A stretch of 32,442 bases of DNA, taken from positions 1 to 32,442 of the forward strand of contig NZ_JAEULO010000034.1 in assembly GCF_016793705.1 (NCBI RefSeq), in the 5' to 3' direction. Position 1 is the stretch's first letter. Each line of letters opens with the position of its first letter. The notes under the pieces are model-generated. The model had not been told where the DNA came from, ran no database searches, and saw only the letters and a list, made by a program, of their open reading frames with translations. This DNA is from Tabrizicola sp. (lineage in GTDB: Bacteria > Pseudomonadota > Alphaproteobacteria > Rhodobacterales > Rhodobacteraceae). Shown here one piece after another: positions 16,834 to 32,428 of the stretch. Position numbers and translations under genes: made by a program.

Positions 16834-17835
16834 ATGCGCTGGGGCCTGATCGGGGCAAGTACCATTGCCGAACAGTTCATGATCGAGGCCATCCGCGCAA
16901 CCGGGGGCGAGGTCGCAGCCGTGGTCAGCACGACCGAGGCGCGCGGGGCAGATTTCTCCCGCACGCAGGGTATTCCGGCCCATGGCACCGCGCTGGCACT
17001 GGCGCTGGATGACCCGACGATCGGCGCGGTCTACATCTCTTCGACCAACGATAAGCACCACGCGCAAGCGCTGGCGGCGATCCAAGCGGGAAAGCATGTG
17101 CTTTGCGAAAAGCCGCTTGCGATGACGGTCGAGGATGCATTCGCCATGGTCCGCGCCGCAGACGCGGCAGGCTTAATCTTCGCCACCAACCACCACCTGC
17201 GCGCATCCGGCTCGCATCGTGCGATCCGCGACCTCATAGCCTCTGGCCGCATCGGGCGCGTGTTGTCACTTCGCCTGTTCCATGCCGTTCACCTGCCCGC
17301 GAACCTGCAAGGCTGGCGGATCAACGACGCTTCGGTGGGTGGCGGGGTGATTCCCGACGTCACCGTTCACGACGCCGATGTCGCGCGTTTCCTTCTGGGT
17401 GAGGATCCTGTGACGGTCGTGGCGCAGATGTCCGTCTCAGGCATGGGGCAAGGGGTAGAGGACAGCGCGATGTCGGTCTGGACCATGCCTTCGGGCACGA
17501 TGGTCATGTCGCACGAAAGCTTCACCCATCCCTTCGCGGGTTCGGGGCTGGAGGTGCATGGCACCGAAGGCTCGATATTCGCACGCGGCGTGATGACGCA
17601 ACTGCCCGTGGGCGAGATCGAACTGGTCACGGGGCAGGGCCGCGCGCCGGTGCCCTATCCGCAGCACAACCTCTATGTTCAGGGTGTCACCGATTTCCTT
17701 TCGGCCATCGCGGGCAAGGGTCAGCCCGCCGCGAGCGGCAGGGATGGCGTTGCCTCGCTGGCCGTTGCGCTGGCGGTGCGCGAGGCCGCCCGCACCGGCA
17801 TCCGCCAGACCGTAGACTATGTGAGGATCGCATGA
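16834..17835 (+). CDS. Gfo/Idh/MocA oxidoreductase, 1,5-anhydro-D-fructose reductase-like
   Basis: NADP-dependent dehydrogenase. The 333-residue protein has the N-terminal Rossmann motif GLIGASTIA (residues 4-12), CEKPLAMT with Lys93, and GGGVIPDVTVHDADVARF with Asp175 and His179. These align with the catalytic Lys94, Asp176 and His180 of Sinorhizobium morelense 1,5-anhydro-D-fructose reductase (AFR), which is also about 333 residues and shares TNHHLR, HLQGWR-like and GLEVHGTEGS segments, as I remember that sequence. AFR reduces anhydrofructose to 1,5-anhydromannitol; the relevant direction and substrate here are unknown. It is the first gene of the LacI-controlled operon, and its stop overlaps the next start by 4 nt. 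Confidence 0.88.
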   Translation: MRWGLIGASTIAEQFMIEAIRATGGEVAAVVSTTEARGADFSRTQGIPAHGTALALALDDPTIGAVYISSTNDKHHAQALAAIQAGKHVLCEKPLAMTVEDAFAMVRAADAAGLIFATNHHLRASGSHRAIRDLIASGRIGRVLSLRLFHAVHLPANLQGWRINDASVGGGVIPDVTVHDADVARFLLGEDPVTVVAQMSVSGMGQGVEDSAMSVWTMPSGTMVMSHESFTHPFAGSGLEVHGTEGSIFARGVMTQLPVGEIELVTGQGRAPVPYPQHNLYVQGVTDFLSAIAGKGQPAASGRDGVASLAVALAVREAARTGIRQTVDYVRIA

Positions 17836-19403
17836 CCAAACTCGTCTCCGCCGCCCAAGCCGTCGCCCGCATCGCCGACGGGGCGGTCGTCACGGTGTCC
17901 TCCTCCTCCGCGCTCGGCTGCCCCGATCTTGTTCTGAAGGCGTTGGGCGAGCGGTTCCGCACTGAGCGTCACCCGAAGGCCATCACCACGCTCCACCCCA
18001 TTGCCGCAGGCGACATGTACGGCGTCAAGGGGATGGACTGGATCGCGCAGGACGGCCTTCTGGCGCGGGTTCTCGCCGGCTCTTACCCCTCCGGCTCCTC
18101 CAACCTCCCGATGCCAGAGATCTGGAAGATGATCGTCGAGGATCGGGTTGCCGCCTACAATGTTCCGTCGGGGATCATGTTCGACATGCACCGCGAGGCC
18201 GCCGCCCGCCGCCCGGGTGTCCTGACCAGGGTGGGCATGGACACTTTCGTCGATCCCCGGCGCGAGGGTTGCGCGATGAACGCCCAGGGCGCGGCCGCCC
18301 CCATCGTCCACCGCGTCGAATTCGGCGGCGAGACCTGGCTACACTTTCCCAACATTTCGCCCGATGTGTGCATCCTGCGCGCGACCACGGCAGATGAATG
18401 GGGCAACCTGACCTATGAACACGAAGGCGCCTATCTGGGCGGGCTGGAACAGGCCATCGCGACCCGCAACAACCGGGGCCTTGTCATCGCCCAGGTTTCC
18501 CGCTTCACCGCCAAGGGCAGCTTGCGTCCGCATGACGTTCGCGTCCCTGGCCACCTGGTCGACCTGATCGTCCTTGACCCCGACCAGCGCCAGACCACCG
18601 AGACCCGCTATGACCCGGCGATCTCGGGCCAGATCATGCGGCCATGGTCCAGCTTTACCCTGGCCGAGCATGGTATTGAAAAGGTCATCGCCCGCCGCGC
18701 TGCGCTGGAGCTGAAGGCGGGCATGACCGCCAACCTTGGCTTCGGCATCAGCGCCATGGTTCCCCGCATCCTGCTGGAGGAAGGTCACCCCGAAGCCGTG
18801 ACCTGGGCCATCGAGCAGGGCGCGGTGGGAGGGATGCCGCTGACCGGCTTCGCCTTCGGCTGTGCCTCGAACGCCGACGCCTATGTCCCCTCGCCGCAGC
18901 AGTTCATCTACTTCCAGGGCGCGGGGTTCGACCTGTCGTTCCTGTCGTTCCTGGAGATCGACGTCGAGGGTAACGTCAATGTCTCGAAGCTGGGGAAAAA
19001 GCCTTATCTGACAGCGGGTTGCGGCGGTTTCGTCGACATCACCGCGCATGCTCGCAAGATCGTCTTCTCCGGCTGGTTCGAGGCGGGGGCCGACGTGAGG
19101 ATCGGGGCGGGGGGCCTGACCGTCGCTGCCCCCGGCAAGTTCTGCAAGATGGTCGAGAAGGTCGAACACGTCACCTTCTCGGGCACCCGCGCGCGGGGCC
19201 AGGGTCAGGAGGTGTTGTATATCACCGAACGCTGCGTGATCCGGCTGACCGACAAGGGGCTGGTGGCGACCGAGATCATGCCGGGCATCGACCCCGCACG
19301 GGACATCGTCGGCGCCAGCCAGGGCCGGGTGACGGTGGCGGAGAATGCCAGCACCATGCCGCTGTCGCTTCTCGCCGAAGGCCCGATGGGGTGGCAGCCA
19401 TGA
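17832..19403 (+). CDS. Family I acyl-CoA:acetate/3-ketoacid CoA-transferase, fused alpha-beta
   Basis: Moves CoA between carboxylates through a glutamyl-CoA intermediate. The 523-residue protein joins both halves of a family I transferase, as in propionate/acetate CoA-transferases of the YdiF/PCT type. The N-terminal half contains VTVSSSSALGCPDLVLKAL and DGLLARVLAGSYPSG; the C-terminal half contains LKAGMTANLGFGISAMVPRIL and WAIEQGAVGG. Glu328 in the latter corresponds to the catalytic glutamate (Glu333 in YdiF). The C-terminal GCGGFVDITAHARKIVFSG is also typical. The substrate acid is unknown. A CoA-transferase inside a sugar-transporter operon is unusual and implies a carboxylic acid intermediate. 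It is coupled at both ends by ATGA overlaps. Confidence 0.9.
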   Translation: MTKLVSAAQAVARIADGAVVTVSSSSALGCPDLVLKALGERFRTERHPKAITTLHPIAAGDMYGVKGMDWIAQDGLLARVLAGSYPSGSSNLPMPEIWKMIVEDRVAAYNVPSGIMFDMHREAAARRPGVLTRVGMDTFVDPRREGCAMNAQGAAAPIVHRVEFGGETWLHFPNISPDVCILRATTADEWGNLTYEHEGAYLGGLEQAIATRNNRGLVIAQVSRFTAKGSLRPHDVRVPGHLVDLIVLDPDQRQTTETRYDPAISGQIMRPWSSFTLAEHGIEKVIARRAALELKAGMTANLGFGISAMVPRILLEEGHPEAVTWAIEQGAVGGMPLTGFAFGCASNADAYVPSPQQFIYFQGAGFDLSFLSFLEIDVEGNVNVSKLGKKPYLTAGCGGFVDITAHARKIVFSGWFEAGADVRIGAGGLTVAAPGKFCKMVEKVEHVTFSGTRARGQGQEVLYITERCVIRLTDKGLVATEIMPGIDPARDIVGASQGRVTVAENASTMPLSLLAEGPMGWQP

Positions 19404-20167
19404 CCGGTGTTCGTCTGCATATCGCTGGGCCGGTGGCCGAGCTGCGGCTGGATAACCCAGCCAAACTCAACTGCTTCACGGTGGAGATGCTGGGCCAGCT
19501 CGCCAGCCATCTGGAGGTCATCGAGGGCCGCCCGGACGTGCGCGCCGTGATCCTGACGGGCGAGGGCGAGAAGGCCTTCTGCTCGGGTGCCGACATCAAC
19601 GCCTGGGGCGGACTTTCCCCCGCCGATTTCGCCCGCAACTGGGTGCGCGGCGGGCATCGCATCTTTGACCGGCTGGCCCGTCTGGCCAAGCCCACGATCG
19701 CCGCCCTGAACGGTCATGCTTTCGGGGGGGGGCTGGAACTCGCGACAGCCTGCGACATCCGGGTGATCACCCCGAAAGCCACCATCGCGCTGCCCGAGGC
19801 GGGGGTGGGGATCGTACCCGGCTGGTCCGGCTCGCAGCGGCTGACCCGCCTGATCCCGGAAGGCATGGTCAAGGAAATGGCCCTTTTCGGTCGCCGGATC
19901 GGGGCGGGCCGTCTTCTGTCCTGTGGTTTCGTTGCCGAGATTGCCGATGATGTCCGTTCGGCTGCGCTGGAGATCGCCGAAAAGGCCGCCACCCTCTCGC
20001 CCCGCGCGACCGAGATCACCAAGGCGATGATCCATGCGGGCCAGGGCGAGGATTCAGCGGCGCTGATCGAGGCGCTCGGCTCTGCTGCCATCGCCGCCAG
20101 CGCCGACCGGCAGGAGGGTGTGGCCGCCTTCCAAGCCAAGCGCAAAGCAGAATTTCCGGGAACCTGA
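19400..20167 (+). CDS. Enoyl-CoA hydratase/isomerase family (crotonase) protein
   Basis: Crotonase-fold enzyme acting on an acyl-CoA. The 255-residue protein has the oxyanion-hole segment AFCSGADINAW and the second one GHAFGGGLELATACD. Glu113 and Glu133 occupy the positions of the two catalytic glutamates of enoyl-CoA hydratase, with the same 20-residue spacing, so hydration/dehydration chemistry is plausible. The PGWSGSQRL segment replaces the usual PGAGGTQRL. The ATG at 19400 was chosen because it overlaps the CoA-transferase stop (ATGA); the open frame upstream is a shadow. Together with the preceding gene it forms a two-step CoA module whose substrate is not known. Confidence 0.9.
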   Translation: MTGVRLHIAGPVAELRLDNPAKLNCFTVEMLGQLASHLEVIEGRPDVRAVILTGEGEKAFCSGADINAWGGLSPADFARNWVRGGHRIFDRLARLAKPTIAALNGHAFGGGLELATACDIRVITPKATIALPEAGVGIVPGWSGSQRLTRLIPEGMVKEMALFGRRIGAGRLLSCGFVAEIADDVRSAALEIAEKAATLSPRATEITKAMIHAGQGEDSAALIEALGSAAIAASADRQEGVAAFQAKRKAEFPGT

Positions 20168-20168
20168 G

Positions 20169-21692
20169 ATGCTCGACCTGACAATTATCCCTTCTACTGG
20201 CGCAACCCTTCCCGAGGTCCGGCTCAACCGGCACTGGATCAATGGCGCATTTACTCCGGAGGCGATGGCGGACTGGACCGAACGGATCTCTCCCTCGCAT
20301 GGGGCGGTGGTCAGCCGCTCGCTGCGCGGGACCGCAAAAGATGCAGAAGCCGCCATCGCCGCCGCCCGTGCCGCCTTTGACGACGGGCGCTGGAGCGGGC
20401 TTTCCGGCAAGGCCCGCGCCACCGTCCTGCTGAAAGTCGCCGACCTGATCGAGGCCAACGTGGACCGCATGGCGCTGATCGAGACACTGGAATCCGGCAA
20501 ACCGATCACCCAGGCGCGGGGCGAGGTTTCGGGCGCCGCCGACCTCTGGCGCTACGCTGCCTCGCTTGCCCGCACCTTGCACGGCGACAGCCACAATTCG
20601 CTTGGCCAGGACATGCTGGCGGTGGTGCTGAAGGAGCCTATCGGCGTCGTCTCGATCATCACGCCCTGGAACTTCCCGTTCTGGATTCTTTCCCAGAAGC
20701 TGCCCTTCGCTCTTGCGGCGGGCTGCACCTGCGTGGTCAAGCCGTCGGAACTGACTCCGTCAACCGCCGTGATGCTGGCGGACCTCCTTACCGAAGCAGG
20801 ACTTCCATCAGGCGTCGTCAACATCGTCCTCGGCCATGGTCAGCCGGTCGGGTCAACGCTTGCCTCGGATCCGCGCGTTGACATGATCACCTTCACCGGC
20901 TCCACTGTAGTGGGCAAGGGGATCGCGGCGGCGGCTTCAGGCACGCTGAAGAAGGTTGCGCTGGAGCTTGGCGGCAAGAACCCGCAGGTGATCTTCCCCG
21001 ACGCCGATCTCGAATCCGCCGCAGATGCCGTGACCTTCGGCGTCTATTTCAACACAGGCCAGTGTTGCAACTCTGGCAGCCGGATTGTCGTGCACGAGGA
21101 CATCGCCGAAGCCTTCGCTGCCCGGGTCGTGGAACTCTCGAAGCAGGTGGCCTTCGGCGACCCGCTTGACCCCGCGACCCAGGTCGGCGCCATCGTCAGC
21201 CCGGAACATGGTGCGAAGATCGACCGCTACGTCGCCGCCGCGCGTGAGGCCGGGGCCAGTGTCGTGCTTGGCGGCGGCCACTTGGAGGTGCCGGGCCTTG
21301 TGCCCCAGTTCTACCAGCCCACGGTCGTGACCGGCGTCACACCGGACATGGCGATCGCCCGCGAGGAGGTCTTCGGACCCGTTCTCGCCGTCCTCACCTT
21401 CCGCACACTGGACGAAGCGCTGAATCTGGTGAACCATGCCGACTACGGCCTCTCCGCCGGGGTATGGAGCGAAAATGTCCACACCTGCCTTACCTTTGCC
21501 CGTGCTGCCCAGGCGGGCACAGTCTGGACCAACACCTGGATGGACGGTTTTCCGGAGGTCACCTTCGGCGGGGTCAAACAATCCGGCCTTGGCCGCGAGA
21601 TCGGCCGCCATGGCCTGGACGAGTTCATGGAGATCAAGTCGCTGGTGATGCGGATCGGCCGCACGCGCGCGCCTTGGGTAAGACCCCGCTGA
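20169..21692 (+). CDS. NAD(P)-dependent aldehyde dehydrogenase
   Basis: Oxidises an aldehyde to a carboxylic acid. The 507-residue protein has the ALDH superfamily landmarks: ITPWNFPFW, the nucleotide-binding TFTGSTVVGK, ALELGGKNPQVIF with general base Glu266, and NTGQCC with nucleophile Cys300. The C-terminal EEVFGPVLAVL and FGGVKQSGLGREIG motifs are intact. It belongs to the broad betaine-aldehyde/gamma-aminobutyraldehyde-like branch, so substrate prediction is weak. The ATG at 20169 starts 1 bp after the crotonase stop; an in-frame ATG at 20118 lies inside that gene and was rejected. It could supply the acid that the CoA-transferase activates. Confidence 0.93.
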   Translation: MLDLTIIPSTGATLPEVRLNRHWINGAFTPEAMADWTERISPSHGAVVSRSLRGTAKDAEAAIAAARAAFDDGRWSGLSGKARATVLLKVADLIEANVDRMALIETLESGKPITQARGEVSGAADLWRYAASLARTLHGDSHNSLGQDMLAVVLKEPIGVVSIITPWNFPFWILSQKLPFALAAGCTCVVKPSELTPSTAVMLADLLTEAGLPSGVVNIVLGHGQPVGSTLASDPRVDMITFTGSTVVGKGIAAAASGTLKKVALELGGKNPQVIFPDADLESAADAVTFGVYFNTGQCCNSGSRIVVHEDIAEAFAARVVELSKQVAFGDPLDPATQVGAIVSPEHGAKIDRYVAAAREAGASVVLGGGHLEVPGLVPQFYQPTVVTGVTPDMAIAREEVFGPVLAVLTFRTLDEALNLVNHADYGLSAGVWSENVHTCLTFARAAQAGTVWTNTWMDGFPEVTFGGVKQSGLGREIGRHGLDEFMEIKSLVMRIGRTRAPWVRPR

Positions 21693-21728: not shown

Positions 21729-22979
21729 ATGCGCCTGTTTGGAAAGACGATGACCGCCGCGGCGGCCCTGGTGATGACTACATCGATTGGTTTCGCGGAA
21801 GACGTTGAAGTCCTGCACTGGTGGACATCCGGCGGCGAGGCGGCCGCCTTGAACGTGCTGAAGGACAATCTGGCCGCCGGCGGTACCGGCTGGGTCGACA
21901 TGCCGGTCGCCGGGGGCGGGGGCGAAGCCGCCATGACGGCGCTCCGCGCCCGCGTCACGGCAGGCGATCCTCCCACCGCCGTGCAGATGCTTGGCTTCGA
22001 CATCCAGGACTGGGCGGCCGAGGGGGCGCTCGCCGACCTGACCGCCACGGCGCAGGCCGAGGGCTGGGACAAGGTTGTTCCGGCCGCGCTCCAGGCCTTC
22101 TCGACCTATGACGGCAAATGGGTCGCCGCCCCGGTCAATGTCCACTCGACCAACTGGGTCTGGATCAACAAGGCCGCGCTCGACGCCACTGGCCTTGCCG
22201 CGCCGACCACCTGGGACGAACTGGTGGCCGTGCTCGACAAGATGAAGGAAAACGGGATCACGCCCCTCGGCCACGGCGGTCAGCCCTGGCAGGAAGCCAC
22301 CGTCTTCGACGGCGTGGTGCTCGGCATGGGCGGAGACCTGTACAAGAAGGCTTTCATCGACCTCGACCCCGCCGCGCTGGGTGGGCCGGAGATGGCTGAA
22401 GCCTTCAATCGTCTGATCAAGCTGCGTTCCTATGTTGACGACAACTTCTCCGGTCGCGACTGGAACCTGGCCTCGGCGATGGTGATCAACGGCGAGGCCG
22501 GGATGCAGATGATGGGCGACTGGGCCAAGGGCGAGTTCCTGAAGGCCGGCAAGGTCCCCGGAACCGATTTCGTCTGCATCCGCTTCCCGGGTACGCAAGG
22601 CTCGGTCACGTTCAACTCCGACCAGTTCGCGATGTTCAACCAGTCGGACGCTGCCAAGCAGGAAGCACAGGTCGCAATGGCCAAGGCGATCATGGATCCG
22701 GCCTTCCAGTCGGCGTTCAACGTGGTCAAGGGCTCGGTCCCGGCGCGGACCGACGTGCCGAACGACGCCTTCGACGACTGCGGCAAGAAGGGCATGGTCG
22801 ACCTTGCGGAAGCCAACACCGCCGGCACGCTCTACGGCTCGATGGCGCATGGCCATGCCGCGCCTGCGGCGGTGAAGAACGCCACCTATGACGTGATCAC
22901 TGCGGCCTTCAACGGCGAGTATGCCGATGGAGCAGCCGCCGCTGCCGCGCTGGCCGAAGCCGTCGCCGCCGCGCAGTGA
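21729..22979 (+). CDS. Sugar ABC transporter, periplasmic binding protein (glucose-type, GtsA-like)
   Basis: Family 1 extracellular solute receptor. The 416-residue precursor has a 23-residue signal peptide (basic MRLFGK, hydrophobic core, cleavage after IGFA). The mature protein starts with [18 protein letters not shown]. This HWWTSGGE opening, the [16 protein letters not shown] segment and [15 protein letters not shown] are typical of glucose/mannose receptors such as Pseudomonas GtsA. A glucose-like pyranose or polyol ligand is therefore likely but not proven. The ATG at 21729 has GGGAGGA about 6 bases upstream, which is why the earlier ATG at 21705 was rejected. The last 60 residues are alanine-rich. 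A cluster of three hairpins separates it from the permease genes. Confidence 0.92.
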
Positions 22980-23090: not shown

Positions 23091-23987
23091 ATGATGGCCC
23101 CGACCGAGGCCGATTTCCGCACGAAGCTACAGGACTGGTTGCCAAAGCTCGTCCTCGCCCCTTCCTTCGCTGTGACGCTTCTTTTCGTCTACGGCTTCAT
23201 CCTCTTCACCGTCGTGCTCAGCTTCACCGGCTCGAAGATGCTGCCTAAATACGACTGGGTGGGCTTCGAGAACTACCAGAAGCTCTTTGCTTTGCCCGCC
23301 TGGAACACCGCGATCATCAACATCGCGATCTTCGCCACGCTTTACATTGTGATCTGCACGCTGATCGGGTTGATGCTGGCGATCTTCCTCGACCAGAAGA
23401 TCCGGGGCGAGGGGGTTTTGCGTCCGATCTACCTTTACCCGATGGCCCTCAGCTTCATCGTCACCGGCACCGCCTGGAAATGGTTCCTCGACCCCGGCAT
23501 CGGGCTGGAGAAGATCATGCATCTCTGGGGCTGGGAGTCGTTCTCCTTCACCTGGATCAAGGATGGCGAGATGGCGCTTTACACCATCGTCATCGCCGCC
23601 GTCTGGCAGACCTCGGGCTTCGTGATGGCGATGTTCTTGGCCGGCCTGCGCGGCATCGACAACGAGATCCTGAAGGCCGCGCAGATCGACGGCGCCTCGA
23701 ACTGGCAGCTTTACCGGCGGATCGTGATCCCGCTCCTCCGCCCCGCTTTCTTGTCGGCCTTCGTCATCCTCTCCCACCTCGCGATCAAGTCCTACGACCT
23801 GGTCATCGCCTTGACCGGCGGCGGCCCCGGCCGGGCGACCGAGATGCCCGCGACCTTCATGTATTCCTACACCTTCACAAGGAACCAGATGGGCATCGGC
23901 GCCTCCTCTGCCGTGATCATGCTGATGACCATCGCGGCGATCATGGTGCCCTATCTCTACGCCGAGCTGAAGGAGAAGAAGGTATGA
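23091..23987 (+). CDS. Sugar ABC transporter permease 1 (MalF/GtsB-like)
   Basis: Inner-membrane permease of the carbohydrate CUT1 class. The 298-residue protein has six hydrophobic segments, the first at about residues 18-42 (VLAPSFAVTLLFVYGFILF). The ATPase-coupling EAA loop lies near residues 200-220: EILKAAQIDGASNWQLYRRI followed by VIPLLRP. The LTGGGPGRATEMPATFMY region near the C terminus is typical of MalF-type partners. GGGAGG lies just upstream. The start could equally be the next codon, ATG 23094, which has better spacing (6 nt). It overlaps the second permease gene by 4 nt. Confidence 0.93.
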   Translation: MMAPTEADFRTKLQDWLPKLVLAPSFAVTLLFVYGFILFTVVLSFTGSKMLPKYDWVGFENYQKLFALPAWNTAIINIAIFATLYIVICTLIGLMLAIFLDQKIRGEGVLRPIYLYPMALSFIVTGTAWKWFLDPGIGLEKIMHLWGWESFSFTWIKDGEMALYTIVIAAVWQTSGFVMAMFLAGLRGIDNEILKAAQIDGASNWQLYRRIVIPLLRPAFLSAFVILSHLAIKSYDLVIALTGGGPGRATEMPATFMYSYTFTRNQMGIGASSAVIMLMTIAAIMVPYLYAELKEKKV

Positions 23988-24862
23988 GCGCCGTCACCCA
24001 GGACACCGCCGTCAGTACGGGCCGCGCCACCCGCGCCTTCCTCTACCTAATCCTGATCCTCTTCGCGCTTTTCTACCTCCTGCCGCTCTACGTCATGGGG
24101 GTGAACTCGCTGAAGCCGCTGCCGGAAATCACCGGCGGCAACATGATGGCGCTGCCGTCCACGTGGACGCTCGACCCCTGGCGCTCCGCCTGGTCCACCG
24201 CCCAGATCGGGGTGGAGCCGACCGGCCTGAAACCCTATTTCCTGAACTCGATCCTGATGGTCGTTCCCGCAGTCGCGATCTCCACCATCGTCGGCGCGCT
24301 GAACGGTTACGTGCTGACCAAATGGCGCTTCCGCTATGATACCTGGGTCTTCGGGCTAATGCTCTTTTCCTGCTTCATTCCGTTCCAGATCGTCCTCATC
24401 CCGATGGCCGTCGTCCTCGGCAAGCTCGGCCTCGCCGGATCGGTCCCCGGCCTGATCCTCGTCCATGTCGTCTATGGCATCGGCTTCACCACGCTCTACT
24501 TCCGCAACTACTACGCCAGCTTCCCGACCGAGCTGATCCGTGCCGCCCAGATCGACGGGGCCGGGTTCTTCCGGATATTCTGGCGCATCCTCCTGCCCGT
24601 CTCCGGCCCCATCGCGGTGGTCTCGGTGATCTGGCAGTTCACCAACATCTGGAACGACTTCCTGTTCGGCGTCTCCTTCGGCGGCACCTCGCAGCCGATG
24701 ACGGTCGCACTGAACAACCTCGTCCAGTCCTCGACTGGCGTGAAGGAATACAACGTCCATTTCGCGGGCGCGATCCTGGCCGCGCTTCCCACCCTCTTCG
24801 TCTATATCGTCGCAGGCCGCTACTTCGTGCGCGGGCTGATGGCAGGCTCTGTGAAAGGCTGA
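23984..24862 (+). CDS. Sugar ABC transporter permease 2 (MalG/GtsC-like)
   Basis: Second CUT1 membrane subunit. The 292-residue protein has six hydrophobic segments. The first is at about residues 18-40 and is followed by the MalG-type periplasmic stretch [14 protein letters not shown]. The EAA loop reads [20 protein letters not shown], followed by LLPVSGP, and the C-terminal [11 protein letters not shown] and [17 protein letters not shown] are typical of MalG homologues. ATG 23984 was chosen because it overlaps the first permease stop (ATGA); the longer open frame upstream is only a shadow. The ATPase gene follows after 4 bp. Confidence 0.93.
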
Positions 24863-24866: not shown

Positions 24867-25979
24867 ATGGGCTTTCTCGACATCCGCAACGTCACCAAAT
24901 CCTACGGCCAGGTCGAGGTGCTGCACCGCGTCGACATCGCGGTGGAAGAGGGCGAGTTCCTGGTCCTCGTCGGCCCCTCCGGCTGCGGCAAGTCCACACT
25001 CCTCAACATGATCGCCGGGCTGGAGGCCATCACCGGCGGCGAGATCGCGATCAAGAACCGAGTGGTGAACGGGGTCCACCCCTCCAAGCGCAACATCGCC
25101 ATGGTGTTCCAGAGCTACGCGCTCTACCCCAACATGACCGTGGGCCAGAACATGACCTTCGGCCTCGAAATGCACGGGGTGCCGAAGCCCGAACGTGACA
25201 AGGCGCTGGCCTCCGTCGCCAAGCTCCTCCAGATCGACCACCTCCTCGACCGCAAGCCCGGCCAGCTTTCCGGCGGCCAGCGCCAGCGTGTTGCGATGGG
25301 GCGGGCACTGGTCAGGAACCCCGATGTCTTCCTTTTCGACGAGCCGCTCTCCAACCTCGACGCCAAGCTGCGCGTTGACATGCGGACCGAGATCAAGAAG
25401 CTGCACCACAACCTCAAGACCACCATCGTCTACGTCACCCACGACCAGATCGAGGCGATGACGCTCTCCACCCGCATCGCGGTGATGAACAAGGGTTTCG
25501 TCCAGCAACTCGGCACCCCGAAAGAGATCTACGACACCCCGGCCAACGTCTTCGTCGCCACCTTCATGGGCAGCCCGGCGATGAACATCATCCCCGCCAC
25601 CGTGGTGATGGAAGGCGGCCAGCCCCACGCCGCCGTCACCGATGCCGAGGGCCAGGTCCAGCACCTGCGCTTCAGCCAGCCCGGCCTCGTCGCCTGGGCG
25701 GGCAAGCCCATCCTCCTCGGCATCCGCCCCGAGGCGATCACCGACCCCGAGGGCGCCGACCGCAAGTCCGGCAACATCGTTGCGCTGAAAAACCGCGTCA
25801 CCGTCACCGAACCCGCCGGTGCCGACACCTTCGTCACCATGACCCTCTCCGGGAAGGACGCCATCGCCCGGATGCGCGCCGACGCCAATGTGGCAGCGGG
25901 CCAAAGCTTCGACTTCGCGGTGAACATGGAGAAAGCCGTCGCCTTCGATCCCGCGACCGAGGACCGGATCACCGCCTGA
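24867..25979 (+). CDS. Sugar ABC transporter ATP-binding protein (MalK/UgpC/MsmK type)
   Basis: Energises the CUT1 sugar importer. The 370-residue protein has Walker [10 protein letters not shown] (36-44), [13 protein letters not shown] with the Q-loop, signature LSGGQRQ (from 134), Walker B FLFDEP (D158, E159) and the H-loop His192 in [11 protein letters not shown]-terminal TOBE/OB-fold regulatory domain (about 240-370) contains LLGIRPEAI. The length and order are standard for UgpC/MsmK proteins, which sometimes serve several sugar transporters. Its stop overlaps the next start by one base (TGATG). The domain after residue 240 is less conserved, as usual. Confidence 0.95.
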
Positions 25980-27466
25980 TGCAACCGGACGTCATCATCA
26001 TCGGCTCCGGCATGGGCGGGGCGACGCTGGCTGCTGCCCTTGCCCCCACCGGCCGCCGCATCCTGATCCTGGAACGTGGCGAGCGGCTCAAGGACTCGCC
26101 CGAGGCTCGCGACCCTGCCGCCATCTTCCAGCGTGGCCACTTCAAGCCGAACGAGACCTGGCGCGACATCTCCGGCGCACCGCTCCACCCTGGCAACTAC
26201 GCCTATGTCGGCGGCAATACCAAGTTCTACGGCGCCGTCCTTCTGCGCTACCGGGCCGAGGATTTCTGCCCCCTCCGCCACATCGACGGCACCACCCCCG
26301 GCTGGCCGATCTCCTACGACGATCTCGAACCCTTCTACTCCCGCGCCGAAACCCTCTACCGCGTCCGGGGCGACGTGTCGGGCGACCCCACCGAGCCGCC
26401 GCATTCGGCCCCCTATCCCTTCCTGCCGGTTCCAGATGAGTCCGACATCGCCGATCTGCGCCGGGCCTTCACCGCGCAGGGCCTCCACGTCTCCGCGCTT
26501 CCCCTCGGCATCGACATCGAGGCCTGGCTGAAGCGCGCACCGACCGGCTGGGACGCCTTTCCCGACACCACCGGCGCAAAGTCCGACGCCGAAAGCTGCG
26601 GTCTGGCCGAGGCGCTGAAGCACCCGAACGTCACATTGCAGACTGGCACGAAGGTCACCCGCATCCTTGCCGAAGGGCGCCGAGTGACCGGGGTCGAGGT
26701 CGAACGGTCAGGGGTGCGAGAGATCCTGACAGCGCCCGTCGTCGTCCTTGCTGCGGGCGCTATCCTGTCATCCGCTCTCCTCCTCGCCTCCGCCAACGAC
26801 GACCACCCGACTGGCCTTGCCAACGCTTCCGATCAGGTTGGCCGCAACTTCATGAATCACAACCTCACCGGCATGGTCGCTCTGAACCCCTTCCGCCGCA
26901 ACCGCACGACCTACGAAAAGACCATACAGATCAACGATTTCTACCTGACCGGCGGCCCGAACGGCGAGCCTCTCGGCAACATCCAGATGCTCGGCCGCAT
27001 CACCGGCCCGATCCTCGCGGGCGAGAGCGGCCTGCCGCTCTGGCTCTCGCGCCTGATCGCCGATCGCTCGATTCACATCATGGCCATGTCGGAAGACCTG
27101 CCCGACCCGAATTCCCGGGTGCTGTGGAAGAACGGAGAGGTCGTGCTGGACTGGCGCAAGACCAACACCCGAGCGCATGACCTGCTGGTCAAACGCCTGA
27201 AACAGGCGATGCGCAGGGCCGGCTGGCCGATCACCCTGGCGCGGGGTTTTCCGAAGTCAAAGCCCAGCCACCAATGCGGCACCAACCGCATGGGCGCGAA
27301 CCCTGCGACCTCCGTGGTCGATGTGAACCTCAAGACCCACGACCTCGACAACCTCTACATTTGCGACGCCTCGGTCCTGCCCACCTCGGCCGGCGTCAAC
27401 CCTTCGCTCACCATCGCCGCCCTCGCTCTACGCGCGGGCGACCACATCGCCCGGACCCTGCCATGA
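25979..27466 (+). CDS. GMC-family FAD oxidoreductase, pyranose-oxidase/3-dehydrogenase-like
   Basis: FAD enzyme expected to oxidise a hydroxyl of a sugar or polyol. The 495-residue protein starts with the dinucleotide fold VIIIGSGMGGATLAAALA and later has YVGGNTKFYGAVLLRYR. The C-terminal SHQCGTNRMG and NLYICDASVLPTSAGVNPSLT segments supply the catalytic His431/Asn474 pair. This C-terminal pattern belongs to the branch containing pyranose 2-oxidases and glucoside 3-dehydrogenases rather than choline dehydrogenases. There is no signal or Tat peptide, so it should work in the cytoplasm. No cytochrome or gluconate-2-dehydrogenase-type small subunit is adjacent. The electron acceptor (oxygen, quinone or other) is unknown. 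Confidence 0.88.
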   Translation: MQPDVIIIGSGMGGATLAAALAPTGRRILILERGERLKDSPEARDPAAIFQRGHFKPNETWRDISGAPLHPGNYAYVGGNTKFYGAVLLRYRAEDFCPLRHIDGTTPGWPISYDDLEPFYSRAETLYRVRGDVSGDPTEPPHSAPYPFLPVPDESDIADLRRAFTAQGLHVSALPLGIDIEAWLKRAPTGWDAFPDTTGAKSDAESCGLAEALKHPNVTLQTGTKVTRILAEGRRVTGVEVERSGVREILTAPVVVLAAGAILSSALLLASANDDHPTGLANASDQVGRNFMNHNLTGMVALNPFRRNRTTYEKTIQINDFYLTGGPNGEPLGNIQMLGRITGPILAGESGLPLWLSRLIADRSIHIMAMSEDLPDPNSRVLWKNGEVVLDWRKTNTRAHDLLVKRLKQAMRRAGWPITLARGFPKSKPSHQCGTNRMGANPATSVVDVNLKTHDLDNLYICDASVLPTSAGVNPSLTIAALALRAGDHIARTLP

Positions 27467-28221
27467 AGCCCCTCGCGCTTGTCACCGGTGGCCAGCAGGG
27501 CATCGGTCTCGGCATCGCAGAGGCGCTGACCGCGCAAGGCTTTCGCCTCGCCATCGCCTCGCTGCCCCCGGCGGATGACCCGGTGGTCGTCGAGGCCATG
27601 GCCAGGCTCGGCTCTGAGGTCTGCTACTATCAGCATGACCTTGCCGACCTTGCTGCCATCCCAACGCTCCTGAATCGGATCGAAGGCGACCAAGGTCTGC
27701 TCGACGCGCTGATCCAGAATGCCGGCGTGGCGGCGAAGGTCCGTGGTGACATGCTGGAGATCACGCCGGAAAACCTCGACTGGATCATGGGCATCAACTT
27801 GACCGGGGCTTTCTTCCTGGCTCAGCAGGTGGCGAAACGGATGCTCGCCACGACCAGCCCGCACTACCGCTCGATCACCTTCGTCACCTCCGTCTCCGCC
27901 CGGAGGGCCAGCCCCGAACGCGCCGACTACTGCATCTCGAAGGCCGCCGCCGCCATGGTCGCCCAGACCCTCGCCCTCCGCCTTGCTTCGCACGGCATTG
28001 GCGTCTTTGAGCTGCGCCCCGGCATCATCGAGACCGGCATGACCGCCGGCGTGAAGGACAAATACACCGCGCTCATCGAAGGCGGCCTCGTCCCGACAGG
28101 CCGCTGGGGCCGACCTACTGACATCGGCCAGGCGGCGATCCCCGTCGTCACCGGCCAACTTGCCTTCTGCACCGGCGCCGTGATCCCCGTCGACGGCGGG
28201 CTCTCCATCGAAAGACTTTAA
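27463..28221 (+). CDS. Short-chain dehydrogenase/reductase (FabG-like SDR)
   Basis: NAD(P)-dependent dehydrogenase. The 252-residue protein has the cofactor motif TGGQQGIG (8-15), NAG (86-88) and the catalytic triad Ser143, Tyr156 and Lys160 (YCISK). The C-terminal PGIIETGMTAGV and FCTGAVIPVDGG are standard for classical SDRs. Many such proteins are annotated as 3-ketoacyl-ACP reductase, but in this context a sugar or polyol dehydrogenase is more likely; the sequence does not decide. The ATG at 27463 overlaps the preceding stop (ATGA), which fixes the start. The next gene begins 3 bp after its stop. Confidence 0.92.
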   Translation: MKPLALVTGGQQGIGLGIAEALTAQGFRLAIASLPPADDPVVVEAMARLGSEVCYYQHDLADLAAIPTLLNRIEGDQGLLDALIQNAGVAAKVRGDMLEITPENLDWIMGINLTGAFFLAQQVAKRMLATTSPHYRSITFVTSVSARRASPERADYCISKAAAAMVAQTLALRLASHGIGVFELRPGIIETGMTAGVKDKYTALIEGGLVPTGRWGRPTDIGQAAIPVVTGQLAFCTGAVIPVDGGLSIERL

Positions 28222-28224: not shown

Positions 28225-29805
28225 ATGACCGAAGGCTACGATTACATCATCATCGGTGGCGGCAGCGCAGGCTGCGTTCTCGCCGCCCGCCTCAGCGAAA
28301 ACCCAGCCGCCAAGGTTCTGCTGCTCGAAGCTGGTGGCCGCGACCGCCACCCGTTCTACCACCTGCCCGCAGGCTTCGCGAAGATGACCAAGGGCATCGG
28401 ATCCTGGGGCTGGCAGACCGTGCCGCAGCGCCACATGCGCGGCATGCAGATCCGCTACACGCAGGCCAAGGTGATCGGCGGCGGCTCCTCGATCAACGCC
28501 CAGCTCTACACCCGGGGCAATGCGCTCGACTACGAGGACTGGCGCCAGATGGGCTGCACGGGCTGGGGCTACGAGGACGTGCTCCCGTACTTCCGCAAGT
28601 CTGAGGTCAACGACAGCTTTGAAAACCGTTTTCACGGCAAGGGCGGCCCCCTTGGCGTCAGCCAGCCCCGCGCGCCCTTGCCGATCTGCGAGGCCTATTT
28701 CGCCGCCGCCGCCGAGATCGGCATCCCCAGGAACTGCGACTTTACCGGCGAGACCCAGGACGGCGTCGGCTACTACCAGCTGACCCAGCGCTGGTATCGT
28801 CGCTCCTCCGCTGCCACCGCCTTCCTGAAGCCCGCCCTGAAACGCCCCAACCTCACCCTGAAGACGGGCGCGCAAGTCCTGCGCATCGTCACCGAAAAGG
28901 GCAGGGCGGTCGGCGTCGAAACCCCCGAGGGCATCCTCCGCGCCACCACCGAGGTCATCCTCGCCTCCGGCGCCATCGGCTCGCCGCGCCTTCTGCAACT
29001 CTCCGGCATCGGCCCCGCCGAGGACCTCACCCGCCTCGGCATCCCCGTCGTCCTCGACCGGCCTCAGGTCGGCGCGAACCTGCAGGACCATCTCGACCTT
29101 TTCGTCATCGCCGAATGCACCGGCCCGCACACCTACGACCGCTACGCCAAACTCCACTGGTCGGCGCTGGCGGGCCTGCAGTATCTGCTGACCCGCAAGG
29201 GCCCCGTCGCCTCCTCCCTCTTCGAGACCGGCGGCTTCTGGTACGCCGACCCGTCCGCCCGCTCGCCCGACATCCAGTTCCACCTCGGCCTCGGCTCCGG
29301 CATCGAGGCCGGTGTCGCCGCCATGCCGAACGGCGGCGTCACCTTGAACTCCGCCTTCCTCCGCCCCCGCAGCCGAGGTACGGTCCGCCTCGCCTCCGCC
29401 GACCCGAAGGCCGCCCCCCTGATCGACCCGAACTACTGGGCCGACCCCTACGACCGCGAGATGTCGATCAAGGGCCTCAAACTCGCGCAAGAGATCATGC
29501 GCCAGCCCGCCCTGAAACCCTTCATCCTCGCCGAACGCCTCCCCGGTCCGGCGGTGAAGACCGACGAAGACTACATCGACTACGCCTGCAAGAACGCCAA
29601 GACCGACCACCACCCCGCCGGTACTTGCCGCATGGGGTCAGACCTGGAAGCCGTCGTTGACCCGCAACTCCGCTTCAACGGCATCGAGCACTTGCGCGTC
29701 GTCGACGCCTCGATCATGCCCACCGTCGTCTCCTCCAACACCAACGCCCCCACCATCATGATCGCCGAAAAAGCCGCCGACATGATCAAGGAAGCCCAAA
29801 GATGA
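28225..29805 (+). CDS. GMC-family FAD oxidoreductase, choline-dehydrogenase-like
   Basis: FAD-dependent alcohol dehydrogenase. The 526-residue protein starts YDYIIIGGGSAGCVLAARL and contains the GMC signature KVIGGGSSINAQLYTRG and the second signature ASGAIGSPRLLQLSGIGP. The catalytic pair is His463 in DHHPAGTCRMG and Asn507 in SSNTNAPT. It belongs to the choline/alcohol dehydrogenase branch and is clearly distinct from the GMC protein two genes upstream. The substrate is probably a primary or secondary alcohol, unproven. It lacks a signal peptide. The nearest ribosome-binding site, AAGAG, abuts the start, so translation may depend on coupling with the SDR gene. Its stop overlaps the next gene by 4 nt. 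Confidence 0.93.
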   Translation: MTEGYDYIIIGGGSAGCVLAARLSENPAAKVLLLEAGGRDRHPFYHLPAGFAKMTKGIGSWGWQTVPQRHMRGMQIRYTQAKVIGGGSSINAQLYTRGNALDYEDWRQMGCTGWGYEDVLPYFRKSEVNDSFENRFHGKGGPLGVSQPRAPLPICEAYFAAAAEIGIPRNCDFTGETQDGVGYYQLTQRWYRRSSAATAFLKPALKRPNLTLKTGAQVLRIVTEKGRAVGVETPEGILRATTEVILASGAIGSPRLLQLSGIGPAEDLTRLGIPVVLDRPQVGANLQDHLDLFVIAECTGPHTYDRYAKLHWSALAGLQYLLTRKGPVASSLFETGGFWYADPSARSPDIQFHLGLGSGIEAGVAAMPNGGVTLNSAFLRPRSRGTVRLASADPKAAPLIDPNYWADPYDREMSIKGLKLAQEIMRQPALKPFILAERLPGPAVKTDEDYIDYACKNAKTDHHPAGTCRMGSDLEAVVDPQLRFNGIEHLRVVDASIMPTVVSSNTNAPTIMIAEKAADMIKEAQR

Positions 29806-30110
29806 TCCGCCACATCGTCCTCCTCAAAGCCCGCCCCGAAGTCACCGAGGCCCAGATCACCGCGATCTTCGCCGACCTCCACGCGCTCCGCCTCCCCGGC
29901 ATCCTCGCCATCCACTCCGGCCGCAGCGAAAGCCCCGAGCAGATCGAACGCGGCTACCTGCACGGCTTCACCGTCGACTTCACCGATTGGGCAGCCCTTG
30001 CCGCCTATCAGTCCCACCCAGACCACCAGCGCGTGGGTGCCGCCCTCGTCGCCGCAGCACAGGGCGGAATCGACGGCATCCTCGTCTTCGACCTGCCGAC
30101 CGCGCCATGA
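29802..30110 (+). CDS. Dabb (stress-responsive alpha/beta barrel) domain protein
   Basis: A 102-residue ferredoxin-like protein with the Dabb pattern: MIRHIVLLKARPEVTEAQIT at the start, then SGRSESPEQIERGYLHGFTV and a central AYQSHPDHQRVGAAL segment with the conserved HP(D/E)H. Dabb proteins form dimeric barrels. Some are stress-induced with unknown role, while others (such as olivetolic acid cyclase) are enzymes acting on polyketone substrates, so a catalytic role in the pathway is possible. The start overlaps the GMC gene stop (ATGA). It is followed by a 147-bp gap with a GC-rich repeat element, the largest break in the second half of the operon. Confidence 0.88.
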   Translation: MIRHIVLLKARPEVTEAQITAIFADLHALRLPGILAIHSGRSESPEQIERGYLHGFTVDFTDWAALAAYQSHPDHQRVGAALVAAAQGGIDGILVFDLPTAP

Positions 30111-30130
30111 TCATTCTCTGTCCTCAAATA

Positions 30131-30212
30131 TCCTCGGGGGGTCCGGGGGCGAAGCGCCCCCGGCGTCCGAGCCGGTTGCGCGCGTTTCGCGCGCAGAGGC
30201 GAGGCAAAAGGC
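30131..30212 (+). repeat. GC-rich REP-like intergenic element with two hairpins
   Basis: The gap between the Dabb and DUF993 genes contains a perfect 9-bp stem, CCGGGGGCG with CGCCCCCGG (30143-30163, loop AAG). A perfect 8-bp stem follows, TGCGCGCG with CGCGCGCA (30177-30195, loop TTT), and then a GCGAG/CTCGC arm pair near 30200-30215. The preceding TCCTCGGGGGGTCC and the whole layout resemble repeated intergenic elements I associate with Rhodobacterales genomes. It may stabilise upstream mRNA or partly terminate. Only one copy is in this window. Confidence 0.55.
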
Positions 30213-30257
30213 TCGCGCGTCAGCGCTCATTTTCCGAACCGTCCGAGAGGCCACCTG

Positions 30258-31427
30258 ATGCTGACCCTCCCCACCGCCGATGCGGGCTTGAAATCCTACC
30301 GCCTGAGCGGCACTCCCCTCATTCCCCGCGCGCCCAAGGTCCCGCTCACCCGCACCGCCTTCGCAGCCGCCCATGTCGTCTCCGACCCCCTGCGTGAGAG
30401 GAACCCCTGGGACAGCCGACCCGCCGTCGATTGGGACACGACCCTGGCCTTCCGCCAGCAGCTCTGGGACCAGGGCCTCCACCTCGCCGAGGCGATGGAC
30501 ACTGCCCAACGCGGCATGGGCGTCAATTGGCCCACCGCGCTGGAGCTGATCCAGCGTACCATGCGGGCCGCCAAAGCCCATCCCCTTAGACCCCGGGTCG
30601 CCTGCGGGGCGGGCACCGACCACAAACCCGCACCGGACCTCGCCACCCTCGACGCCATTCTCGCCGCCTATACTGACCAGGCTCAGGCGATCGAGGCCGC
30701 AGGCGGCCAGCTCATCCTGATGGTCTCGCGTGCCTTCATTGCAATAGACGCAACGCCCGACACCTATCACACGGTCTATCGCTGCCTGATCGACCAGGCG
30801 CGCGAGCCGGTCATCCTGCACTGGCTGGGCGACATGTTCGATCCCGCGCTGACCGGCTACTGGGGCACGACAGATGTCGCCCAGGCTACGGATTTCGTGC
30901 TCAACCTCATCGCCGAAAACCCAGCCAAGGTGGACGGGATCAAGATTTCACTCCTCGACCAGGCCCACGAAGAGCAGTTCCGCGCTCGCCTCCCCGCGGG
31001 CGTGCGTCTCTACACCGGTGATGATTTCAACTACGCGCCCCTGATCGAGGGCGACGGCAACCGTCATTCCCATGCGCTCCTTGGCATCTTCGCCGCCATC
31101 GCCCCCGCCGCAGCGCAGGCGCTGGACGCCCTCGCGCAGGGCGACAGCGCGACCTACCACCGCCTGCTCGCCCCGACCGTCCCCCTCAGCCGCGAAATCT
31201 TCCGCGCGCCCACCCGCTTCTACAAGGCGGGCATCGCCTTCCTTAGCTGGCTAAACGGCCACCAGACCCATTTCATCATGCCCGCGGGCTTCCAGTCCTC
31301 GCGCGACATCACCCATTATGCCCAGGTCTTCCGGCTGGCCGATCAGGCAGGCTTGCTTTCCCGTCCCGATCTGGCAGAAGCGCGGATGACCACCCTCCTT
31401 TCCCTGCACGGCATCGACCAGAGCTGA
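30258..31427 (+). CDS. DUF993 protein, putative DapA-like (TIM-barrel) aldolase
   Basis: Uncharacterised family (DUF993) often annotated as dihydrodipicolinate-synthase-like. The 389-residue protein shows the family segments AFAAAHVVSDPL, EAMDTAQRGMGVNWP, PRVACGAGTDHKP, EPVILHWLGDMFDP and LYTGDDFNYAPLI. Lys229 in VDGIKISLLD is placed like the Schiff-base lysine of class I DapA-type aldolases, so a C-C bond cleavage or condensation step is a reasonable inference, not an established fact. The ATG at 30258 is preceded by GAGAGG about 8 bases upstream. It follows the REP-like gap and overlaps the LacI gene by 1 nt (TGATG). Confidence 0.85.
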   Translation: MLTLPTADAGLKSYRLSGTPLIPRAPKVPLTRTAFAAAHVVSDPLRERNPWDSRPAVDWDTTLAFRQQLWDQGLHLAEAMDTAQRGMGVNWPTALELIQRTMRAAKAHPLRPRVACGAGTDHKPAPDLATLDAILAAYTDQAQAIEAAGGQLILMVSRAFIAIDATPDTYHTVYRCLIDQAREPVILHWLGDMFDPALTGYWGTTDVAQATDFVLNLIAENPAKVDGIKISLLDQAHEEQFRARLPAGVRLYTGDDFNYAPLIEGDGNRHSHALLGIFAAIAPAAAQALDALAQGDSATYHRLLAPTVPLSREIFRAPTRFYKAGIAFLSWLNGHQTHFIMPAGFQSSRDITHYAQVFRLADQAGLLSRPDLAEARMTTLLSLHGIDQS

Positions 31428-32428
31428 TGGACAAACGGCCGACGATCATCGACGTGGCGACGCTGGCGGGCGTCTCCAAATCGACCGTCAGCCTTGTCCT
31501 GCAGCAAAGCCCGCTGGTGAAACAGGAAACCCGCGATGACGTGCGCCGCGCCATGGTCCAACTCGGCTATGTCTACAACCGCGCCGCCGCCAACCTCCGC
31601 AGCGCCAATGCCGGCTTGATCGGACTGGTGATCAACGACCTCAGGAACCCGTTCTTCACCGAATTCGCCACCTCCCTGCAGATGGCACTCTCCGCGCGCG
31701 GCTATGCCACCGTGCTGGCCAACACCGACGAAGACCCCGCCCTGCAGGCCCAGGTCGTCGGCGCGATGCTGGAACACGGCGTCTCCGCCCTGATCGTCTC
31801 TCCCGCCTATGGCGACGAGGCCCTGACCTTCGACGCCATCGCCCGCGCCAATGTCCCTGCGCTGCAAGTGCTGCGTCGGGTCGTGGACAGCACCCGCTTC
31901 CCTTTCGCTGCCCCCGACTACCCGACCGGCTCGCGCCTCGCCACCGAACACCTCCTCTCCCAGGGCGCGCGCCACATCGCCTTCGTCGGCGGCCTCGAAG
32001 GCCGCGCCGTCACCCAACTGCGCATGTCGGGCTACCGTGACACGCTCGCTGCGTGCGGCCTGACCCCGCTCCATCTACCCGGTCGCCCCGGCCGCGCCTT
32101 CGGGCGCGAGGCCGCGCGCCGTCTGCAACAGGATCATCCCGCCGTCGATGCCGTCCTCTGCTTCAACGACCTGACCGCACTGGGCCTGCTGACCGGCTGC
32201 GCCGAGCTTGGGCGCGCTGTCGGGACCTCGCTCAGGATCGTCGGCTTCGACGACATCGAGGATTGCGCACAGGTCTTTCCTACCCTTTCCTCCGTCCGCT
32301 GCGACATCGCCGGTTTTGGTCGGCGGATGGCGGAAACGGTGTTGGGTTGGCTGGAAGAGGGTCGTCGCCCGCCTGCGGAAACCGTTACAGCTGTGACATT
32401 GATTCCCCGCGCGTCGAGCCAGTCGTGA
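31427..32428 (+). CDS. LacI-family transcriptional regulator
   Basis: Probable local repressor of the operon. The 333-residue protein has the LacI helix-turn-helix at residues 6-30 (IIDVATLAGVSKSTVSLVL) and the hinge helix with lever Leu57 (AAANLRSANA). The PBP-like sugar-binding domain follows, with LIGLVINDLRNPFFTE, HGVSALIVSP, GARHIAFVGG and LRIVGFDDIED. The paired operators at 16785-16819 have the central CG and symmetry this family prefers. Being the last known gene of the unit it would control, it could be autoregulated. The effector is unknown but is probably the transported sugar or a derivative. Its stop overlaps a following ATG (TGATG), so another gene may follow. Confidence 0.94.
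   Translation: MDKRPTIIDVATLAGVSKSTVSLVLQQSPLVKQETRDDVRRAMVQLGYVYNRAAANLRSANAGLIGLVINDLRNPFFTEFATSLQMALSARGYATVLANTDEDPALQAQVVGAMLEHGVSALIVSPAYGDEALTFDAIARANVPALQVLRRVVDSTRFPFAAPDYPTGSRLATEHLLSQGARHIAFVGGLEGRAVTQLRMSGYRDTLAACGLTPLHLPGRPGRAFGREAARRLQQDHPAVDAVLCFNDLTALGLLTGCAELGRAVGTSLRIVGFDDIEDCAQVFPTLSSVRCDIAGFGRRMAETVLGWLEEGRRPPAETVTAVTLIPRASSQS

Follow-up and report, generated by a model that had tools for sequence, protein, structure and literature searches.

1,5-Anhydro-D-fructose reductase (AFR) reduces 1,5-anhydrofructose (AF) to the manno product 1,5-anhydromannitol (AM), a reaction published for a Sinorhizobium relative, and in Sinorhizobium morelense AM is reported to be turned into mannose; the enzyme that acts after AFR is still unidentified according to the accessible part of a 2025 review (PMC12441222). 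The same part describes an anaerobic pathway for 1,5-anhydroglucitol (AG) that uses a phosphotransferase system (PTS) and the glycyl radical enzymes YbiW/PflD, treats an analogous oxidative pathway as not described, and notes that a probiotic lowering intestinal AG, of interest in two neutropenias, would need an aerobic AG enzyme (PMC12441222). Here, we describe an operon of Tabrizicola sp. that begins with an AFR homologue and lies on contig NZ_JAEULO010000034.1 (assembly GCF_016793705.1, positions 1 to 32,442 of the forward strand; this whole stretch of 32,442 nucleotides, an entire contig of a 3.8 Mb draft genome, is called the window below). As a whole, the operon is best explained, on gene content and sequence comparison, as one that would serve the aerobic use of 1,5-anhydrohexitols through coenzyme A (CoA)-ester ring opening to 2-keto-3-deoxygluconate (KDG), a reading to which we give a probability of about 0.42.

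The operon consists of 14 genes (16834-32428), all on the + strand and all with intact reading frames. With the elements that precede it, it reads as follows:

16775..16780, + strand: -35-like TTGACA box, putative operon promoter, recognised by eye
16785..16798, no strand assigned: LacI operator 1, TTGGATCGTTCTAA, pattern match
16806..16819, no strand assigned: LacI operator 2, TTGGAACGATCCAA, perfect palindromic match to the pattern
16834..17835, + strand: afr, 1,5-anhydro-D-fructose reductase homologue (Gfo/Idh/MocA)
17832..19403, + strand: CoA-transferase (CoAT), YdiF-like
19400..20167, + strand: crotonase, or enoyl-CoA hydratase (ECH), by Pfam
20169..21692, + strand: aldehyde dehydrogenase (ALDH), by Pfam and curated models
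21729..22979, + strand: receptor of a CUT1 importer, glucose-binding-protein type
23091..23987, + strand: CUT1 permease 1, by Pfam
23984..24862, + strand: CUT1 permease 2, by Pfam
24867..25979, + strand: MalK-type ABC ATPase, by Pfam
25979..27466, + strand: GMC1, FAD-glucose-dehydrogenase/pyranose-oxidase-like, proposed C2 dehydrogenase of AG
27463..28221, + strand: SDR of module I, co-occurring with DUF993, by Pfam and locus comparison
28225..29805, + strand: GMC2, choline-dehydrogenase/alcohol-oxidase-like, proposed C6 alcohol dehydrogenase
29802..30110, + strand: Dabb protein, by Pfam; possible ring-opening helper
30258..31427, + strand: DUF993 of module I, dihydrodipicolinate synthase (DHDPS) fold, proposed KDG-type aldolase
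31427..32428, + strand: LacI-family regulator of the operon, by Pfam

The intergenic gaps are, in order, -4, -4, 1, 36, 111, -4, 4, -1, -4, 3, -4, 147 and -1 bases; only three of them (36, 111 and 147) leave the range of -4 to 4, and gaps and overlaps as short as these are expected of one transcript. Pfam matches above cut-off comprise Gfo/Idh/MocA, CoA-transferase, enoyl-CoA hydratase, ALDH, SBP_bac_1, two permeases and an ABC ATPase, and further two GMC proteins, SDR, Dabb, DUF993 (E 4e-172) and LacI. The genes named by an initial annotation of this DNA are present at its positions or within a few bases of them and match the Pfam families named; its view of one LacI-bounded operon is borne out by the short gaps, the intact frames and a gene order that recurs in other genomes, as the neighbourhood comparison it had suggested now shows. 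The contig ends 14 bases past LacI, so the operon may continue beyond the window.

The argument is anchored in the first gene. Its product is 55% identical to 2GLX and 53% to 4KOA, both deposited as 1,5-anhydro-D-fructose reductase and by far the best matches in the Protein Data Bank (PDB), which makes it an AFR orthologue; scored as a levoglucosan dehydrogenase (LgdA) it reaches 87 bits against an NCBIfam cut-off of 650. It keeps K93 (EKP) and H179 (VHDAD), which we take to be catalytic, as well as S9, A12, S32 and R37, presumably the residues that select NADPH. The accessible part of a study of an AFR relative gives Lys-Asp-His as the catalytic residues (PMC5969746). In S. meliloti Ak57 (L114), the corresponding Gfo protein is 99.7% identical to PDB 4KOA and 86.7% to 2GLX, and the orthologous cluster around it runs LacI-AFR-CoAT-ECH-ALDH-receptor-permeases-ABC, with DUF993 divergent. 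We assume that 4KOA is locus SMc04400. In its accessible part, a published table groups SMc04390 (annotated as L-sorbose dehydrogenase) with SMc04391 (SDR) and SMc04392 and gives negative log2 changes for them, and the same source gives leuB as SMc04405 (PMC12542648), a listing that, as far as this part goes, fits the gene order GMC2-SDR-GMC1 and the leuB gene near the L114 cluster. To judge from the numbering, smc04396, which is induced by dextrin in the accessible part of another report (PMC4960864), would be the receptor gene of the S. meliloti cluster.

Among the matches listed, the closest structure to the window receptor is 4r2b, "with bound glucose", and both sequence and fold place the protein in the glucose-binding subgroup. 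The identity of AFR and a glucose-type receptor together make a 1,5-anhydrohexitol the probable substrate, and from these likenesses we consider it likely that the operon serves AG, AF and AM, which narrows the glucose-like substrate first suggested for it. The operon might also be one for glucose and glucosone, in which GMC1 would form glucosone, AFR would reduce this to mannose, and the acid and CoA genes would degrade a side product. AFR acts on osones, the receptor family binds glucose, and GMC1 resembles FAD glucose dehydrogenase and fructose dehydrogenase, its C-terminal part also pyranose oxidases; free glucose or mannose, however, would need neither a CoA-transferase nor a crotonase, and no hexokinase family is found among the 14 operon proteins, and we regard this alternative as unlikely. 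A glucan lyase as a general source of AF was tried and dropped: PF01055 has no match in G000 and matches in 7 of 17 afr genomes, over the cut-off in 5, and its absence from G000 and most afr genomes speaks for no general link. Roseibium porphyridii, recorded as coming from the red alga Porphyridium cruentum, has the operon on a 49 kb plasmid (L119, L113), where hydroxyproline and nitrate genes are its neighbours; starch can be converted to 1,5-anhydrofructose by red algae.

The operon also appears to have an operator of its own. Twin palindromes of the pattern TTGGA[AT]CG[AT]TC[CT]AA directly precede afr, and a palindrome scan allowing up to 2 mismatches gave 6 strand-matches against 0.67 expected, a number reached in 1 of 100 shuffles. 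Across 21 afr upstream regions (the window, 17 fetched stretches, L112, L119 and L047; 260 bases each, or as many as available), all 21 contain a site that agrees with TTGGAACGATCCAA in 12 or more of 14 positions, and 18 contain two sites that agree in 11 or more. TTGAC boxes similar to the putative -35 element were seen by eye in many of these regions; a mechanical sigma-70 scan of 16500-32442 gave no promoter. Elsewhere in the source genome, with at most 1 mismatch, the pattern is found at one place besides the operon pair (C57:139047). A palindrome, TTGGAWCGWTCCAA (13 or 14 of 14 positions), likewise adjoins LacI in all of 26 Rhizobiales-type loci, with two copies in 24 (23 of the best 80 DUF993 loci described below, plus L114, L116 and L118; L083, from Polaromonas and with another gene order, was left out). 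DUF993 is divergent from LacI there, starting within about 350 bases across the palindrome, in 25 of the 26, and L118 has no DUF993 in view. The palindrome shared beside LacI and DUF993 thus places DUF993 in the AFR regulon even where it forms a separate transcript. A LacI regulon for anhydrofructose was not found in the open-access literature, and the accessible part of PMC4052901 does not mention one.

The best 80 of at least 580 related stretches from a genome scan with a DUF993 alignment were analysed. The operon recurs in Rhodobacterales and Rhizobiales with its gene order kept, and 19 of the 80 (L032-L049, L082) are of the window type, some of them partial (no importer genes are in view in L039 and L047). 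AFR orthologues, 60-75% identical, occur in 18 of these 19 genomes; by our reading of the coordinates AFR precedes DUF993 by 11.7-14.6 kb in 16 and by 9.1 kb in L047, in L036 it is on another contig, and the genome of L039 has no AFR at the 60-75% level. A family sample of 198 genomes has 43 with DUF993, 17 with AFR at E 1e-50 and 34 with GMC1 at E 1e-80. Thirteen of the 17 AFR genomes have DUF993 (Fisher p 6e-7, kinship uncorrected) and 16 have GMC1 (Fisher p 2e-13, likewise uncorrected); G191, the sample's one other genome of the window's genus, yielded a DUF993 piece only, AFR and GMC1 not being found at those limits. On a Bradyrhizobium plasmid (L117:12001-14667), an AFR-like Gfo protein is paired with a GMC1 relative of 56% identity; an MFS transporter gene lies close by, and the other operon genes were not found beside the pair, an arrangement that fits GMC1 and AFR acting together.

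What lies below AFR is best seen in the GMC1 neighbourhoods of the family sample, 31 places at 50% identity or more, the window included (four of 35 places fell under 50%, in G171, G130, G150 and G157, and were left out; two of these, L185 and L186, have no core operon). A common core of CoAT, ECH, ALDH, importer, GMC1, GMC2, Dabb and LacI surrounds either of two modules; some loci lack, or do not show, single core members, such as the importer in L147, L163 and L172. Module I, marked by the SDR, is present in 13 places, in 11 of which DUF993 can be seen; the contigs of L150 and L162 stop before the DUF993 place, and DUF993 stands at the start of another contig in the genome of L162 (G182) and was not found in that of L150 (G195). 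AFR is present in 11 of the 13, and the other two stretches begin past its place. Module II, in 11 places, consists of a second Gfo protein (Gfo2, 10 of 11), a FAD_binding_2 flavoprotein (10 of 11) and a PfkB kinase (7 of 11). No locus carries markers of both. The other seven places fit neither module: L158 and L176 are cut by contig ends, L174, L175 and L177 show importer and GMC1 only, L159 shows DUF993, glycerate kinase, Dabb and GMC1 only, and L178 has the core without either module and DUF993 on another contig. A PfkB kinase or flavoprotein of the module II kind was not found in L032-L124 (E 1e-10). On a GMC2 tree of 53 rows (the same genome twice in L179/L048 and L180/L044; overlapping re-fetches L181 and L182 dropped), module II needs 4 changes and the starred branches force 4, bootstrap not being settled, which looks like repeated replacement rather than one split.

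Gene sets that stand in for one another are expected to draw on one intermediate. The module II kinase has 2-dehydro-3-deoxygluconokinase as its best curated family (230 and 247 bits for the two tested, cut-off 400), and in 10 of 21 named module I loci the gene after LacI encodes a glycerate 2-kinase (best NCBIfam models GlyK_Thmprot and gly_kin_Thpl, both under their cut-offs). An aldolase with a glycerate kinase, as against a KDG kinase, is the difference between non-phosphorylative and phosphorylative KDG use, and the exchange points to KDG as the intermediate common to both modules, although the agreement of the KDG reading with the kinase match was not a registered prediction. In the source genome, contigs C73 and C4 (L126, L125) share a 141-base prefix that encodes the end of a glycerate 2-kinase (the last 38-41 residues, 82% and 78% identical), and our guess is that this gene follows the window LacI.

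These replacements bear directly on DUF993. The initial annotation had made C-C cleavage by DUF993 a central early step; since the same core occurs without DUF993, and SDR and DUF993 are swapped for module II, it is not the central step. The order then envisaged, ring oxidation, DUF993 cleavage, aldehyde oxidation and only then CoA chemistry on the fragment, has on its side the aldolase fold of DUF993 and a lysine at the Schiff-base place, but module II loci devoid of DUF993 still carry ALDH, CoAT and ECH, so that these need not depend on its product, and we hold this order to be quite improbable. Oxidation would probably remain the first step, and the combination of oxidation with CoA activation is supported; cleavage would come last, probably after CoA-ester formation and crotonase opening. 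A retro-aldolase action of DUF993 on AF itself was set aside in the same way, together with 3-keto elimination, because core loci lack DUF993 and because CoAT and ECH would be left unexplained.

DUF993 has the (beta/alpha)8 barrel of DHDPS type in fold comparison, in which the best 50 structure matches were listed. Lys229, on the sixth barrel strand, is invariant in 37 of 37 DUF993 sequences, as expected of a Schiff-base lysine, and a profile alignment of E 0.17 sets it opposite the Lys that is invariant among three DHDPS proteins. PF00701 does not recognise the protein, for which PF06187 is the only family at E 0.001 or better, and the one significant structure match is 4DNH (SMc04132), a DUF993 paralogue that is itself titled hypothetical protein; the name DUF993 was not found in the open-access literature searched. 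Other DUF993 genes stand in Gfo-DUF993-sugar-isomerase arrangements with varied importers (e.g. L115, L121, L123, L124), and enterobacterial and Janthinobacterium forms carry ALDH, GMC2, CoAT and acyl-CoA dehydrogenase. Individual loci add detail. On plasmids, L121:728-9981 and L123:5390-10068 combine DUF993 with Gfo, sugar-isomerase-like and enolase-like annotated proteins, the last a class that often makes 2-keto-3-deoxy acids, and tricarboxylate-type transporter genes in L121 suggest an acid substrate there. An Erwinia plasmid locus of the Gfo/sugar-isomerase/DUF993 type (L115:3234-10152) also encodes, on the opposite strand, a glycerate kinase that shares 53% identity with the L112 kinase. 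The Raoultella locus L108:1825-12039 holds ALDH, GMC2, both electron-transfer flavoprotein (ETF) subunits, ETF-quinone oxidoreductase, acyl-CoA dehydrogenase and a sugar-isomerase-like protein.

Such company recalls the breakdown of levoglucosan, which proceeds through a 3-keto sugar and ring opening by beta-elimination, and the window pathway could similarly oxidise C3 of an anhydro-sugar and lose the ether by beta-elimination. Gfo2 of module II is nearest to levoglucosan dehydrogenase (311 bits, cut-off 650), and DUF993 elsewhere accompanies Gfo and sugar-isomerase-like proteins; the window operon, however, encodes no sugar-isomerase-like protein, and a 3-keto route gives the core CoAT and ECH nothing to do. 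We think this mechanism unlikely.

We infer the following chemistry beyond AFR for the route to KDG, which we favour at somewhat less than even odds. The substrate would enter through the glucose-binding-type receptor and the CUT1 ABC importer. GMC1 would oxidise AG at C2 to AF, and AFR with NADPH would reduce AF to AM, a net epimerisation at C2. GMC2 and ALDH may then oxidise C6 of AM to the carboxylate; GMC2 differs from GMC1 (28% identical over 303 amino acids), scores best among curated models against choline dehydrogenase (556 bits, cut-off 605), and has as its nearest solved structures a chloramphenicol-inactivating oxidoreductase, choline dehydrogenase and an alcohol oxidase. At this point the published fate of AM has to be weighed: AFR might serve the route by which AM, hydroxylated at C1, becomes mannose, the remaining operon genes serving something else. 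That route is the one reported for S. morelense, but no P450 or other oxygenase family is present among the 14 operon proteins (the rest of the genome was not searched for one), and CoAT, ECH, ALDH and the GMC genes, which it would not use, stay with afr and share its operator, so that we judge it rather improbable here.

On the route to KDG, the acid would be taken by CoAT to a CoA ester, possibly with CoA recovered from the product. The crotonase, whose nearest solved structure is 3-hydroxypropionyl-CoA dehydratase and whose glutamates in GLELA and LPEAG, presumably catalytic, are at the usual places, would remove the C4 hydroxyl, which is beta to the ester and next to an acidic C5-H, to give a C4=C5 enol ether. 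C5-H and C4-OH lie on the same ring face, which would fit a syn-eliminating enzyme, and syn elimination is the stereochemistry of crotonases. Addition of water at C5, by the crotonase or Dabb, would yield a hemiketal, whose opening would leave a ketone at C5 and C1 as a free alcohol; the stable 1,5-ether would be broken, and the product, numbered from the old C6, would be a 2-keto-3-deoxyhexonate. In Fischer bookkeeping AM leads to D-KDG, with C4'-OH and C5'-OH both on the right, and AG to the L-threo isomer, so the manno reduction by AFR is what the KDG route needs. With module I, DUF993 would cleave KDG to pyruvate and glyceraldehyde, the latter passing through glycerate to glycerate 2-kinase; with module II, in other genomes, the KdgK-like kinase would, given the reciprocal replacement, convert KDG to KDPG. 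The full statement, a new aerobic pathway of C2 epimerisation, C6 oxidation, CoA-ester formation and crotonase opening to D-KDG in which DUF993 is a new family of 2-keto-3-deoxy-sugar-acid lyases interchangeable with KDG kinase, is more tentative still.

Several observations weigh against this proposal. The profile comparison of DUF993 with the three DHDPS proteins is not significant, for which reason fold comparison was used instead, and DUF993 lacks both the carboxylate-binding GTTGE motif (G-[ST]-[ST]-G-E) and the strand-5 tyrosine, having MDTAQRG and H188-W189 instead; the missing motifs and the E of 0.17 together mean that DUF993 may act on something other than a free 2-keto acid. Of the 17 afr genomes, four have no DUF993 match, AFR is found in 3 of the 11 module II loci as well, and the KdgK-like kinase, in view in 7 of these 11, stays under its curated cut-off. 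Glycerate kinase is not in view in 11 of the 21 named module I loci, and a repeat search at E 1 in five Rhizobiales-type loci (L050, L058, L069, L116, L118) gave no Dabb. Glucose itself is the known ligand of the receptor family. The proposed route assigns no step to the SDR or the module II flavoprotein, and the stereochemistry of AFR was known beforehand, so the bookkeeping fit was no blind test. Finally, the reported conversion of AM to mannose, which the KDG route does without, conflicts with that route unless mannose is a side product.

To date, no described pathway with this gene set was found in the open-access literature among the matches listed, S. meliloti locus tags included, in agreement with the earlier remark that no named pathway fits, and an aerobic anhydro-sugar route of this kind has probably not been described before. 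The initial suggestion of a new carbohydrate pathway may be right and has become more specific. The operon around the crystallised S. meliloti AFR gene offers concrete candidate genes for a whole aerobic route. If the proposal is true, the orphan family DUF993 gains its first, testable reaction, CoA chemistry is seen to break an unreactive ring ether and feed an anhydro-sugar into ordinary sugar metabolism, and the KDG route suggests why AFR yields the manno rather than the gluco product.

Other genes of the window lie upstream of the operon. Shortly past rpoA, a LuxR-type autoinducer-binding protein and a LuxI-type autoinducer synthase adjoin at 5446-6714, and a polar amino-acid-type ABC importer (SBP_bac_3 receptor, two permeases, ATPase) occupies 10557-15208. 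At 15999-16198 the end of an amino-acid-type ABC ATPase (LLVTHEMSFAREV...), its first part lacking, is by eye probably a gene remnant. A EutQ-like cupin (16330-16683) stands directly before the operon promoter, outside the operator-controlled unit; small cupins elsewhere can open unsaturated uronate rings.

Set against known systems, the operon is closest to that of the S. morelense and S. meliloti AFR enzymes (2GLX, 4KOA), with which it shares the Gfo subfamily, the active-site Lys and His and the S. meliloti operon neighbourhood; a known reaction was found for AFR only and for none of the other 13 genes. With the anaerobic AG pathway it shares the substrate class, but the window operon has no PTS or glycyl radical enzyme (the rest of the genome was not searched), and the proposed route is oxidative and unphosphorylated. 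The non-phosphorylative Entner-Doudoroff branch uses a KDG aldolase and glycerate 2-kinase; DUF993 lacks the canonical DHDPS-family motifs, and the combination of a DHDPS-fold enzyme with glycerate 2-kinase is alike. Uronate degradation after polysaccharide lyases passes from an unsaturated uronate to KDG, KdgK and Eda, and the proposed likeness to it extends over beta-elimination beside a C6 carboxyl, hydration of an enol ether, a 2-keto-3-deoxy acid, and a kinase or aldolase. In place of a polysaccharide lyase, the route proposed here would start from a free anhydrohexitol and employ a CoA ester and a crotonase.

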